23,423 nucleotides of DNA from Candidatus Aenigmatarchaeota archaeon (GCA_016932615.1 JAFGCN010000024.1:1-23423); one strand, 5' to 3'; shown: positions 2,621 to 6,841, counted from the first letter of the stretch. Notes: a model not told the origin generated them from the letters alone. Made by a program: numbers and translations.

Positions 2621-2926
2621 ATGATTATGGCAAATATGTCCGCTAACTGCAACTTTGTTGGGCTCAAAATTCCGGTTCAGATTCTTAGGGAGAATGACGA
2701 CTTTATCGCCTATACTCCCGCCTTTGACATATCGACCTCAGGAAAGAGCTACGAGGAGGCCAAAAAGCGCTTTAGCGAACTGGTTGAGATATTCCTGGAG
2801 GAAACCACTGAGGCAGGGACCCTTGAGACCGCCTTGGAGGAGCTTGGGTGGAAGTGCGTGCAGAAAAAGTGGATGCCGCCGGTTGTAGTCGCCCAGGAAA
2901 TGCAGGAGATAAAAATGCCTGCGTAG
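2621..2926 (+). CDS. hicB: HicB-family antitoxin
   Basis: The protein (up to 101 residues) shows the HicB/UPF0150 pattern: a first strand IPVQILRENDDFIAYTP, then FDISTSGKSYEEAKKRFSEL, where the G-K-S-x-EEA turn leads into the conserved helix, then TLETALEELGWK. HicB proteins fold on and inhibit the HicA mRNA interferase. This one has no C-terminal DNA-binding domain, only a short tail ending EMQEIKMPA, so any autoregulation would rely on another surface or protein. HicA starts 3 nt after its stop. The antitoxin comes before the toxin, the reverse of the classical hicAB order but common in archaea. Starts at 2627 or 2636 are also plausible on promoter spacing. Confidence 0.85.
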   Translation: MIMANMSANCNFVGLKIPVQILRENDDFIAYTPAFDISTSGKSYEEAKKRFSELVEIFLEETTEAGTLETALEELGWKCVQKKWMPPVVVAQEMQEIKMPA

Positions 2927-2929
2927 AAG

Positions 2930-3154
2930 ATGATAAAGCCAATAAGCTGGAAGAAGTTTGACAAATTCTTAAAATATGTCGGCTGCACTTTGAAGTGTGA
3001 AAAGGGCGACCACATGATTTATTGGAGAGATGGCCTCAACAGGCCGATAGTAATCCCCAAAGTCGAGGACATTCCGACATTTGTGGTAAGAAATAACCTC
3101 CGAACCCTTGGCATCCCCAAGGAGGAGTACCTGGAGATTTTGGAGAGGGTTTAA
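2930..3154 (+). CDS. hicA: HicA-family mRNA interferase toxin
   Basis: A 74-residue protein with the typical HicA dsRBD-like layout: ISWKKFDKFLKYVGC (helix 1 and turn), then CEKGDHMIYW, in which His28 is the expected catalytic residue of the KGSH-type motif, then RPIVIPKVEDIPTFVVRNNLRTLGI and a final helix. HicA toxins cleave mRNA and are neutralised by HicB. The usual Ser before the His is Asp here and the 'Gly-x-Leu-xx-Ile' segment reads NNLRTLGI, both within family variation. The gene lies 3 nt after hicB, and a 47-residue ORF follows 2 nt after its stop. Confidence 0.88.
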   Translation: MIKPISWKKFDKFLKYVGCTLKCEKGDHMIYWRDGLNRPIVIPKVEDIPTFVVRNNLRTLGIPKEEYLEILERV

Positions 3155-3404: not shown

Positions 3405-3424
3405 CTATTATAGTGATAAACATT

Positions 3425-3835
3425 ATGAAATCCATAGTTGTTGGCTGGGCACCCGGAGAACTTCTGCCAGATTCCAGAGGCAAATCAAAAGTTCCTGAAA
3501 ATTATAGGAGCGCTATCCTCGGCAGGGCTTACCAAATGGGTTCCGCCCGAAAAGAAACAGCCACGACTGCCTTAGAAGTGATTGATAATTGGGCGCTTGT
3601 GCCGGGAACAGAAATCGAGGTTTACGGAGTCTGGGGAGATTTGTGCGTATCAATCCTTGTCGCCCACTGTCTTGACAGAGGACTGAAAGTATATGTTCCT
3701 AAAGGATGCACTGCCAACTATCCTAGGATAAAAGGCAGCCTTAACAGTTTCGTAAAGGATTCTGCCAACTCCCTTGGCATATGCTATGAAACCTGGCCTT
3801 GGAGGGAATATCGGATATTTGAGCCGGTTTTATAG
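3425..3835 (+). CDS. Small protein resembling a reduced isochorismatase/cysteine-hydrolase fold (paralogue 2)
   Basis: A 136-residue paralogue of the protein at 770-1207. Shared landmarks, in order, are MKSIVVGWAPGE, VPENYRSAIL, TEIEVYGVWGDLCVS, a helix, RGLKVYVP, a YP pair and LGICY. The Cys of the GDLCVS segment aligns with that of the paralogue and with the nucleophile Cys of isochorismatase-type hydrolases, while the usual first-strand Asp is replaced (VVGW). The ATG was chosen by alignment with the paralogue and by TATA spacing. Unlike paralogue 1 it seems to have its own promoter and no closely linked partner. Sequence divergence between the copies indicates an old duplication or separate acquisition. 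The fold assignment is inference. Confidence 0.6.
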   Translation: MKSIVVGWAPGELLPDSRGKSKVPENYRSAILGRAYQMGSARKETATTALEVIDNWALVPGTEIEVYGVWGDLCVSILVAHCLDRGLKVYVPKGCTANYPRIKGSLNSFVKDSANSLGICYETWPWREYRIFEPVL

Positions 3836-3971: not shown

Positions 3972-4769
3972 CTAAAGACGCAAGTCAATGTTCTCTTCTA
4001 CAAATTTAATTCCCTTAGGCGATAGCAAGATTTCCTTTGAATCTCCATCATACTCGAGCAACCTTTCTTTATGGAGCGGTAAAACTATCCTATTCCGAAA
4101 TAGAGTTGAATTTGAATATTCTACCCATGCAAGGAGGTCTTTTTCCAATACTGGCTTTGGATATTCAGAGTATAATAGCGCAAGTACCTGCTGATTGTAT
4201 GTTAGCCCACAATTCAGCACTCTTCTTTTTGCTCCATTCTTCCATATGAGGGAGTATTCCTTAGCAACTATACCTTCCACAAGGTCTTGAGCTTCCTGAA
4301 GTGTGAGTTGATGGAATATCCTAACTAGGTCCGCAAGAATCCATTTTGAAACCTGGACGACAAGCGCGGAATCCATATGGTTGGGGTTGATTTCTCCGCC
4401 CATATGCCCAACGCCTCGCTTGTTCCTTAAGTCATAAAGAGCACACATCAGTTTTGGAATATGAAACCTTATTGTATCTGGAAAAGCCGACAAGCTTTCG
4501 AATTTTCTAGTTGAAACTCCAAAATCACGGATACTCTTACCGAAAGGTGTGTATGTCTGGGGAGAACTTGTATGCCACTCAAGTAGCCTATATACAGTTT
4601 CGCAGAACTTTGCTCCATTCAGTTCCGAAGGTTCAAACCGCCCTTCATGAAAGTTTCGTATAATCTGGTTGTAAGTAGTTTCAAGATTTGATGTTAAATC
4701 AGGAGGCAGGGTTGAGAATAGGGAAGAGAAGGTTATCTGAGAGCGGCTAACCCCGCCAGTGCCACTCAT
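3972..4769 (-). CDS. HEPN-like protein with C-terminal winged helix (last gene of five-gene operon)
   Basis: A 265-residue soluble protein. The central helical part (about residues 30-170) carries YDLRNKRGVGHMGGEINPN, where R115-N116-x5-H122 fits the R-[N/D/H]-x4-6-H signature of HEPN ribonucleases. The surrounding text (GHMGG, then MDSALVVQVSKWILADLVRIFH) matches a conserved-hypothetical family I recall from bacterial and archaeal accessory DNA. Residues about 188-260 look like a winged helix (QQVLALLY, then LLAWVEYSNSTLFRNRIVLPL, then LLSPKGIKFVE). The ATG overlaps the stop of the preceding gene by 4 nt (ATGA), so it is translationally coupled as the final gene of the operon. By analogy with HEPN proteins of toxin and abortive-infection systems it may be the effector. 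No activity can be read from sequence alone. Confidence 0.7.
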   Translation of the reverse strand: MSGTGGVSRSQITFSSLFSTLPPDLTSNLETTYNQIIRNFHEGRFEPSELNGAKFCETVYRLLEWHTSSPQTYTPFGKSIRDFGVSTRKFESLSAFPDTIRFHIPKLMCALYDLRNKRGVGHMGGEINPNHMDSALVVQVSKWILADLVRIFHQLTLQEAQDLVEGIVAKEYSLIWKNGAKRRVLNCGLTYNQQVLALLYSEYPKPVLEKDLLAWVEYSNSTLFRNRIVLPLHKERLLEYDGDSKEILLSPKGIKFVEENIDLRL

Positions 4770-5167
4770 TTTTCATCACCTGTTTTTAATTCCAGTAACG
4801 CCTTACACTTAAGGAGATTATAGTTGGGGACTATATAGAGCCCCCTTTTGACTTTAATAACTATCCCTTTTAGCTCCACACCTAGATAATGCCTTACATT
4901 TTCTGGAGCAATGCAAGTCTTTTCGGATATCTCCTTGGGTCTGCACTCTTCCTTAAGACCTTCCCCCAGATTTTTTATAACCGCCACCTTTCGTGCTAAA
5001 AGGTAGAGTGTGATTTTCTTGCGATCACTTTGAGTTTGATAATGCTCTTCAAACAGAACTTCTCCCACCCTGTTAATTCTCACATAGCTTTTCAGGAGTT
5101 CTGCCAATAGATCAATGTCTGCTGTTGCCTCACTATCCACTATCAGGTCATCAAGCGCATCAGTCAT
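4766..5167 (-). CDS. Small winged-helix-like protein (fourth gene of operon)
   Basis: 133 residues from the ATG at 5167, chosen because AGGTGGAG lies just upstream. The longer frame opens with TTG and runs 38 nt into its neighbour. The N-terminal half is acidic and helical (MTDALDDLIVDSEATADIDL). The C-terminal half reads as a helix-turn-helix with wing: KKITLYLLARKVAVIKNLG, then RPKEISEKTCIAPENVRHYL, then IVIKVKRGLYIVPNYNLL. The layout parallels the first protein of the operon (K-E/K-K-I-x-x-YL, a helix, a recognition-helix-like segment, then a basic wing), suggesting that the two are distant paralogues. It overlaps the upstream gene by 8 nt (ATGACTGA) and the downstream gene by 4 nt. Probably a DNA- or RNA-binding or adaptor subunit. 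Confidence 0.65.
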   Translation of the reverse strand: MTDALDDLIVDSEATADIDLLAELLKSYVRINRVGEVLFEEHYQTQSDRKKITLYLLARKVAVIKNLGEGLKEECRPKEISEKTCIAPENVRHYLGVELKGIVIKVKRGLYIVPNYNLLKCKALLELKTGDEK

Positions 5168-5567
5168 GTTTCTCCACCTTTTTGAAATTATTCTCAACGA
5201 CCCTTTCTCCAGTAGTGGTCAAGGTCCAGCACTTGCGTTCTTCCTTTTTACCTTTACCCTCCATGATACATCCTGCCCGGATATTCTTGTTTATCTTATC
5301 GTTTATATTCCCGGGAACGGGTTCTTTTGCTTGTCGAAAACCCGTTTCAATATCATTTAGATTAAAGCAGTCCGTACCTTGGTGCTTTTCCAAGTAATAC
5401 CCTATGGCCAGTGTTTTCTGGACATCATTTTTAGGAGATTTGGACAATAAGAACTCCTTAACTGACAAGACCTTCTCTGCAGAGAAGGGCTTGTTTTCAA
5501 ACTTCCGTTCAAGCTCAGTTATGCGCCGACCGTATTCCTCCAATATCCTCTCGACTTCCTCTTCCAT
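5160..5567 (-). CDS. Winged-helix protein with N-terminal coiled coil (third gene of operon)
   Basis: 135 residues. The N-terminus (MEEEVERILEEYGRRITELE) is a short coiled coil. Residues about 40-125 form a recognisable archaeal winged-helix type: LLSKSPKNDVQKTLAIGYYL, then CFNLNDIETGFRQAKEPVP, then NINDKINKNIRAG, then a wing around KCWTLTTTGERVVE. Such domains occur in uncharacterised archaeal proteins. The start at 5567 is supported by GGTGA 6 nt upstream, at the end of the previous gene, with 4 nt between stop and start. The coiled coil suggests pairing with the next-door protein, which also begins with a heptad-like helix. Confidence 0.7.
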   Translation of the reverse strand: MEEEVERILEEYGRRITELERKFENKPFSAEKVLSVKEFLLSKSPKNDVQKTLAIGYYLEKHQGTDCFNLNDIETGFRQAKEPVPGNINDKINKNIRAGCIMEGKGKKEERKCWTLTTTGERVVENNFKKVEKHD

Positions 5568-5571
5568 ATAT

Positions 5572-5907
5572 TCACCGCTTTACATAACGTCCCTTTCCTC
5601 TCGACCCAATACGAGCCAACTTACGTCCCTTAACCGCTCTTTTAAGAGGGTCGGTTAGGCTCTGTAAGGGATAGATATATCCCCCTTGACCTAACTTCTC
5701 TTTAATGTCCGTTATAGAGCGTGGCTCATTGAAATAACCTTCCTGTTTAAGATCCTCTATGCGAGTAGTTATTGAAGGTTTTCTTTTCGCCAGCTTTTTC
5801 ACAGACTCAGTCAAGAGCAAACCCTCTAGTTTCATAGTAACTCTCTCTAAGGCAATCAGCCGCTTTTCGATTGACTCCCTCCAGTTCCTTTCATTCGTTT
5901 GTTCCAT
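5572..5907 (-). CDS. Winged-helix protein with N-terminal coiled coil (second gene of operon)
   Basis: 111 residues. A helical N-terminus (NWRESIEKRLIALERVTMKLEGLL) leads into a compact winged helix: ITTRIEDLKQEGYFNEPRSI, TDIKEKLGQGGYIYPLQSL, TDPLKRAVKGRKLARIGSRG and a basic KGRYVKR end. The pattern 'I-x-x-L-x-x-E-G-[YF]-F-x-x-P-R-[ST]' followed by 'YPLxSLxxxLxR' is one I know from uncharacterised archaeal proteins, usually next to the SKSPK-type winged helix seen in the adjacent gene. The start overlaps the end of the first gene by 17 nt. The strongly basic C-terminus suits nucleic-acid binding. Confidence 0.7.
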   Translation of the reverse strand: MEQTNERNWRESIEKRLIALERVTMKLEGLLLTESVKKLAKRKPSITTRIEDLKQEGYFNEPRSITDIKEKLGQGGYIYPLQSLTDPLKRAVKGRKLARIGSRGKGRYVKR

Positions 5908-6319
5908 ACTTCTGAATAAGTTCCTTCAGTTTCCTTTCGATTTGATTTGCCTTGATAACATGCCCCATTCGTTTTCCATCGCTTAGCGGTTCCGACTCTA
6001 TCACTCCTTCTTCTCTCAGCATCTTTGTCCAAGGTAAAACACTCCCCTGAGGAAGGCCCATCTCAGTACAAAGTTCTTCGTTTGAAACTGCTGCGGATTC
6101 GCGCAAGCCCGCCCTTTTGCTATATTGCGCCCCAATTAAATAGGTCATTATCTTCTCTTTTCCAGATAATCTATCCTTTTCTTTAACGTCAACAAGCCCC
6201 TTCATGGTAATTCCAACAAGTCTTTTGGCCATATCATACCCCCTCTCTAACGCATCTTCATGAGTAGTTATCATCTCAGCCTTAATTTTTTCAGCAAGCT
6301 TATCTTCAACCCCTTCCAT
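5891..6319 (-). CDS. Winged-helix-like protein (first gene of operon)
   Basis: 142 residues from the ATG at 6319. A TTG at 6373 would extend the frame through the TATA box and into the 60-bp repeat, so it is rejected. The N-terminal half is helical (EDKLAEKIKAEMITTHEDAL, then YDMAKRLVGITMKGL). The second half shows GKEKIMTYLIGAQYSKRAGL, then VSNEELCTEMGLPQGSVLPW, then a basic segment SDGKRMGHVI, i.e. a probable winged helix, and a final helix ERKLKELIQKYG. Being first in the operon and next to a repeated upstream element, it is a candidate autoregulator or DNA-binding subunit, but that is inference. The whole operon is visibly more AT-rich than the alaS region. Confidence 0.65.
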   Translation of the reverse strand: MEGVEDKLAEKIKAEMITTHEDALERGYDMAKRLVGITMKGLVDVKEKDRLSGKEKIMTYLIGAQYSKRAGLRESAAVSNEELCTEMGLPQGSVLPWTKMLREEGVIESEPLSDGKRMGHVIKANQIERKLKELIQKYGTNE

Positions 6320-6330
6320 AATTATAACAT

Positions 6331-6343
6331 TTATATATAAATA
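6331..6343 (-). promoter_or_regulatory. TATA region of the five-gene operon
   Basis: On the minus strand the text following the 60-bp repeat is TATTTATATATAAATG. The TATA element is centred about 18-21 nt before the ATG at 6319, consistent with a leaderless or nearly leaderless transcript. It directly abuts repeat copy 1. Confidence 0.5.
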
Positions 6344-6400
6344 CTTTCTGTGCCTCTTACTGTGAGAAAACAAGTAGAGCTAACTGTCTAATACCAGAAA
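6341..6400 (-). repeat. 60-bp direct repeat, copy 1
   Basis: Exact 60-bp match to 6690-6749 in the same orientation. Inside it, TTTCTG at the start (6345-6350) is the reverse complement of CAGAAA at the end (6395-6400), and CTCTTACT (6354-6361) pairs imperfectly with AGTAGAG (6373-6379), so each copy could form a nested hairpin or a pair of protein-binding half-sites. It lies immediately upstream of the TATA box of the five-gene operon. Confidence 0.9.
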
Positions 6401-6441
6401 TCGCTTGACCAACCGCATATCGCGAACTGACCCTAATCAAA

Positions 6442-6666: not shown

Positions 6667-6689
6667 ATAATCATAATAATATCATAAAG

Positions 6690-6749
6690 ATACTTTCTGT
6701 GCCTCTTACTGTGAGAAAACAAGTAGAGCTAACTGTCTAATACCAGAAA
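6690..6749 (-). repeat. 60-bp direct repeat, copy 2
   Basis: Identical over 60 bp to 6341-6400, offset by 349 bp, same orientation. Identity stops sharply on both sides (G versus A at the left, C versus T at the right). A TATA-like TTTATGATA follows on the minus strand, as at copy 1. Confidence 0.9.
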
Positions 6750-6841
6750 CGGCTATTTTTTGGCTTAATGGGGATATTATGTTTGCGGAGGTAAAACTTC
6801 TTGTTTTTCCCAAATACTTTTCACAAATCTCAACAAAATTC

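Follow-up and report, generated by a model that had tools for sequence, protein, structure and literature searches.

Five open reading frames, P1 to P5, occupy positions 3972-6319 on the minus strand of the window, a 23,423-nt stretch of DNA that is the entire contig C24 of a 1.26-Mb, 97% complete Aenigmatarchaeota MAG. They are co-directional and tightly packed, with overlaps of 17 nt at P1/P2, 8 nt at P3/P4 and 4 nt at P4/P5, and a gap of 4 nt at P2/P3 (Table 1). The P4 start was taken as the ATG at 5167, which sets its overlap with P3 at 8 nt; a TTG at 5197 gives a longer alternative reading. A first-pass annotation of this DNA had described five minus-strand genes with these junctions, an R115-N116-x5-H122 motif in the last product and an AT-rich setting. 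Upon recheck of the ORFs, the places and junctions of the genes matched exactly, and the motif was confirmed by translation and alignment. The base composition was likewise as described: the GC content of the cluster is 0.41-0.44, and that of the spacer upstream 0.32, compared with 0.49-0.53 in most flanking genes (0.53 for the adjoining alanyl-tRNA synthetase and approximately 0.49-0.50 on the right flank), making the region relatively AT-rich.

Table 1. Genes of the five-gene cluster and the predicted catalytic motif of P5 (window coordinates)
Feature	Coordinates	Strand	Description
P1	5891..6319	-	142-aa winged-helix protein; first gene of the cluster
P2	5572..5907	-	111-aa coiled coil and predicted wHTH; optional, poorly conserved
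P3	5160..5567	-	135-aa; N-terminal coiled coil and MarR/PadR-like winged helix
P4	4766..5167	-	133-aa winged-helix protein
P5	3972..4769	-	265-aa effector candidate; HEPN-like ~1-165 and winged helix ~181-260
Predicted HEPN catalytic motif R-N-x5-H	4404..4427	-	codons for P5 residues 115-122

Immediately upstream of P1, the two copies of an 88-nt direct repeat (6318-6405 and 6667-6754; 89% overall, with approximately 60 nt, 6342-6401 and 6691-6750, nearly identical) bracket a 0.3-kb AT-rich stretch. No further full copy that would mark the repeat as a genome-wide element was found in the genome, and it may be an insertion mark or a duplicated operator.

None of the five proteins has a match above threshold in Pfam, PADLOC, NCBIfam or PHROGs, and their assignment draws on profile comparison, homologues and structural models. 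The first-pass annotation had grouped the four small products together as winged-helix-like; this is borne out for P1, P3 and P4, but the four are not all of a kind. By profile comparison (97.3% probability), P1 and P4 are paralogues, and a P4 homologue (P0009) passes the Pfam TrmB model PF01978 (28.1 bits against a cut-off of 25.6), which places P4 and, by homology, P1 among the wHTH proteins. P3 belongs to a coiled-coil/wHTH family distinct from that of P1 and P4: its AF2 model (mean pLDDT 82.6) has a 23-residue coiled coil followed by a winged helix that aligns with PadR 5x11 (VIA-align Z 9.8, rmsd 2.2, 77 residues), and its structural matches include MarR/PadR/RosR and pNOB8 centromere-binding folds. 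The third type, P2, is a coiled coil with a probable winged helix, poorly conserved and dispensable, having only weak homologues, one of them lying between P1 and P4 in another Aenigmatarchaeota cluster (G001/L077; 26 bits) and another in G079/L079; it is absent from a third such genome (G074) and from every Halobacteria cassette seen. As profile similarity between P2 and P3 is confined to 20 coiled-coil columns, we dropped the notion that they are paralogues. The identification of P1 as Csa3 was also rejected, since the similarity of this 142-aa protein to Csa3 is confined to the wHTH end (12.9 bits) and Pfam gave no CARF match.

For P5, the motif and the profile evidence together make it likely that the N-terminal half is a HEPN domain, and the protein is a predicted RNase. 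The published rule for HEPN proteins is R-x4-6-H with a polar residue, usually N, D or H, after the arginine (PMC3710099), and R115-N116-x5-H122 (Rx6H with N after R) conforms to it. Eight of nine P5 homologues, at 15-26% identity, retain both R115 and H122, and all nine retain R118, D133 and R150. The Pfam family Abi_C (PF14355) matches residues 106-142 at 15.8 bits, below the cut-off of 24, and no Abi_C match was found in the other eight P5 homologues. Profile-profile comparison with Abi_C gave a score of 33.5, compared with 22.8 for the best of 100 column-shuffled controls, at a probability of only 53%. This alignment covers 125-165 columns with the motifs in register, such that L-R-N-K-R-G-V-G-H of P5 fits the Abi_C pattern L-R-N-x-x-G-x-G-H; the Abi_C members were taken from Alphaproteobacteria because none were found in Halobacteria. 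In the AF2 model, residues 1-180 are helices with pLDDT of approximately 35 in a model built from two sequences only, whereas the C-terminal winged helix reaches pLDDT 85-94 and Z of approximately 11 to MarR proteins; the model is reliable for this C-terminal part only, and the structural matches there are silent on the HEPN half. A PDB sequence search with P5 returned nothing informative. The earlier description of the last protein as HEPN-like with a C-terminal winged helix is upheld as likely for the former and modelled for the latter, with the Abi_C match itself falling short of the Pfam cut-off. One P5 homologue, at L036:6111-6980, lacks both the motif arginine and the histidine, which suggests an inactive copy.

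Relatives of the cluster recur within Aenigmatarchaeota. In G074 (family f17; contig JACPJV010000006.1 of a Candidatus Aenigmatarchaeota MAG), homologues of P1 (43% identity), P3 (36%) and P5 (26%) are consecutive on one strand, joined by a 23-nt overlap and then a 14-nt gap, with no P4. Of 156 Aenigmatarchaeota genomes, the three with the best P3 matches include both P5 carriers (P = 2.5e-4). A search of genome contigs with P5 alone gave no match. Elsewhere the last gene differs: in G001/L077 (family f2), P1-like, P2-like and P4-like genes are joined by overlaps of 4 and approximately 26 nt, and the P4-like gene is followed, again with an overlap of approximately 26 nt, by a gene for a 215-aa protein with a PLD-like C-terminal half (sub-threshold Pfam MIT_C and PLDc_2; motif HDRYILSND). 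A related PLD-like protein is found in G079/L079 with a P2-like gene and a coiled-coil gene. Restriction-endonuclease-like and DNA-methylase-like ORFs, recognized by eye and motif at L079:223-1566, adjoin these P2-like and PLD-like genes, and the region has the look of what we suggest is a defence island. In G082, three P1/P4-like genes lie downstream of a DNA methylase (PF01555, 122.5 bits) and are truncated by the contig end; a DNA methylase in L078 is among the defence-type neighbours. A further candidate cluster, in G100 (L117), was discarded as a lone P4-like gene near the contig edge. No relatives of the cluster proteins were found in the viral contigs scanned.

The same families recur in Halobacteria, where 341 genomes include 7 with P5, 14 with P3 and 4 with both (hypergeometric P = 6e-5, adjacency not counted). 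One arrangement with P5 reads P4-P3-P1-P5 (L034; junctions +3, -8 and -4 nt, minus denoting overlap) and is adjoined by an SF2 helicase and a 208-aa protein. In G231, P4-P3 (L059) run off one contig end and P5 (L033) starts another contig, which fits one locus split by assembly. At seven loci (L008, L009/L021, L020, L022, L055, L056 and L057), P4-P3-P1 are followed not by P5 but by P12 (P0012), a protein with a C-terminal AAA_assoc_C domain (40 bits, cut-off 27.6) whose gene usually overlaps the cassette by 4 nt, and HerA/DUF87-type ATPases adjoin several of these loci. Because the P5 gene of G231 shares its HerA, 314/320-aa and P4-like neighbours with the P12 cassette of L020, the two last genes occupy equivalent contexts. 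What closes the cassette in Halobacteria varies: P5 homologues, AAA_assoc_C proteins and, where it is fused to P1, a DUF4145-like domain all occur in this place, and junctions across the related clusters range from -1 to -26 or from +3 to +14 nt. As for their surroundings, the P5 loci L031, L032 and L034 carry an SF2 helicase scoring approximately 120 bits to PbeA models, L033 has a HerA neighbour and L035 has SspG and SspH; a Halorubrum plasmid groups several P4/P3-type genes with a helicase and a HEPN-like protein, and several Halobacteria loci are plasmid-borne and close to genes for replication (orc1/cdc6, type B DNA polymerase). At L058:1306-5487, the helicase gene by a P4-P3-P1 cassette has a long insert between helicase motifs, apparently an intein-like insertion. 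The first-pass annotation had proposed that the genes act as a joint unit and had named, as the finding that would speak against it, families lying mostly unclustered in unrelated contexts. We found clustered, ordered cassettes instead, with homologues of P1, P3, P4 and P5 recurring as neighbours in other genera and in another phylum.

Gene fusions add a physical link. Long P5 proteins (L007, L031, L032, L035 and L036) end in a P4-like winged helix (98.1%, E 1e-13; profile score 79 compared with at most 17 in shuffles). DUF4145-like domains are joined to P1 in L058 and to a P3-like winged helix in L056, L060 and L061, the P3 match having 97.5% probability (E 7e-12). In Bradyrhizobium (L023), a P3-like gene is followed by a gene for a protein above the DUF4145 cut-off; the DUF4145-like domains of Halobacteria were named via alignment to this protein, none of them being above the Pfam cut-off. 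DUF4145 is a HEPN family (PMC3710099), so that for each of the three small wHTH families, P1, P3 and P4, at least one genome has a fusion to a HEPN or HEPN-like domain. Several of the Halobacteria DUF4145-like domains lack the motif arginine, and such fusions may therefore be inactive.

Comparison with known systems gave partial likenesses. Abi_C shares with P5 the Rx6H motif, the N after R, and then P/N-x-H..A/D with a long helix, and from this matching motif may itself be a HEPN family; P5 differs in scoring below the Pfam cut-off, in its C-terminal winged helix and in being operonic with small wHTH genes. HEPN proteins of the DUF4145 family (PF13643) are tied to P1- and P3-like wHTH proteins by fusion or adjacency, as P5 is to wHTH genes, but no profile similarity was detected between P5 and the DUF4145-like domains, in which the motif arginine is often missing. 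The PbeA-like SF2 helicase of three Halobacteria P5 loci recalls PbeABCD and Dnd. No PLD domain was detected in this helicase, and the loci were therefore not classed as PbeABCD; PbeC or DndE were not identified in the Halobacteria stretches listed with it. Membership of the window cluster in PbeABCD/Dnd was rejected, as neither P1-P5 nor the neighbouring window proteins that were scanned gave a PADLOC match of PbeA, PbeC or DndE type. In SspB, DndG and BrxA, DNA recognition within a defence complex is the task of several winged helices acting together (PMC10853773, PMC12839542); these are domains of one protein, whereas P1-P4 are three to four separate genes, and the likeness is one of description. 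The HEPN-MNT (type VII) modules resemble the cluster in having a HEPN RNase candidate restrained by a partner from the same operon, but this assignment was dropped because no MNT nucleotidyltransferase gene was found among P1-P4 with Pfam, NCBIfam or PADLOC. HEPN as a kind of effector, and an RNase effector in a defence locus as a principle, are already known. This cassette was not found in the open-access literature on HEPN, winged-helix, archaeal and phosphorothioate defence, and a winged-helix core encoded by separate genes and combined with interchangeable last genes appears to be new.

Our preferred reading, held tentatively and at a little under an even chance, is that the five genes make up a single operon belonging to a modular conflict system of archaea, most likely antiviral or abortive-infection, in which a wHTH assembly gates an exchangeable effector. 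In such a system, P1, P3 and P4, with P2 as an option, would assemble via their coiled coils into a DNA-bound complex of several winged helices, which would repress the operon and hold P5 by its C-terminal wHTH, so that the HEPN domain stays inactive. Invading DNA, or an invader product processed by a helicase or ATPase, would displace or remodel the complex; P5 would then be released or dimerise, and its R115/H122 site would cleave RNA, stopping growth and virus production. Elsewhere the same sensor core would drive another last gene, an AAA_assoc_C or PLD-like protein. The broader proposal, a widespread archaeal defence family built of a P4-P3-P1 wHTH sensor core and exchangeable effectors, working alone in DPANN and alongside a motor, a helicase or HerA, in Halobacteria, is possible, and we advance it with still more reserve. 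The first-pass annotation had put the cluster forward as a candidate for an undescribed defence or addiction system; the conserved joint unit and the Halobacteria counterparts beside defence-type genes favour defence, with the amendment that exchange of the last gene makes the HEPN protein one option among several. Little of archaeal immunity has been charted, and if the proposal is true, a sensor core of separate small wHTH proteins with swappable effectors would be a searchable signature for hidden defence loci. Among the Halobacteria members are strains that can be cultivated and that have viruses, which makes the idea directly testable.

The abundance of winged helices also invites readings without a defence role. 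The best structural matches of P3 and of the P5 C-terminus are transcription regulators, as would be expected of a plain regulator cluster with no effector and a coincidental R...H motif. This we regard as very unlikely, given that the N-terminal half of P5 resembles the Abi_C profile above all shuffles with the motif in register, and that no conserved regulated target gene was found in the neighbourhoods. The MarR/PadR/RosR and pNOB8 centromere-binding folds among the structural matches, together with plasmid neighbours such as orc1/cdc6, type B DNA polymerase and HerA, would suit a replication, segregation or gene-regulation module of a mobile element, whose many wHTH domains bind element DNA, with the last gene as co-regulator and the HEPN-like domain structural. 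Retention of the arginine and histidine in nearly all homologues at such low identity fits an active site instead, and the partners (PbeA-like helicase, SspG/SspH, PLD-like protein) are in keeping with defence, leaving this module an unlikely account of the cluster.

An addiction module with several antitoxins is also rather unlikely, if with somewhat more in its favour: the toxin would be P5, as a HEPN RNase, and the small wHTH proteins would serve as its antitoxins and autorepressors, together stabilising themselves, a plasmid or an island. Small DNA-binding partners do overlap a putative RNase gene in an AT-rich, patchy locus, HicA adjoins the cluster, a HicA-like ORF was recognized by eye in G074, and relatives have plasmid locations. 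Three to four partners, a conserved order and exchangeable last genes nevertheless exceed the usual toxin-antitoxin pair, the Halobacteria copies sit with helicases, HerA or SspGH, and the cluster has no MNT antitoxin. At the window itself, among the nearby genes scanned, only HicA, a weakly isochorismatase-like protein and housekeeping genes were found, with no meaningful PADLOC match, and no helicase or ATPase partner was recognized beside the cluster within the window, so that the case for defence by this copy is drawn from its relatives.

The closeness of a HicBA locus, pointed out in the first-pass annotation, stands for HicA, which passes Pfam PF07927 (33.5 bits, cut-off 27). The HicB-like ORF (2621-2926) has no Pfam match and was judged to be HicB from its position and appearance. 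The HicBA-type pair spans 2621-3154 on the plus strand, opposite to the cluster; in G074, ORFs resembling HicA and, on the opposite strand, HicB, both recognized by eye, adjoin the P5 homologue. Owing to the opposite strand and the different arrangement in this second genome, HicBA is probably a toxin-antitoxin pair separate from the five-gene cluster. Two similar proteins, both starting MKSxVVGW, flank the HicBA pair (770-1207 and 3413-3835), the latter of which has a weak isochorismatase-fold match.
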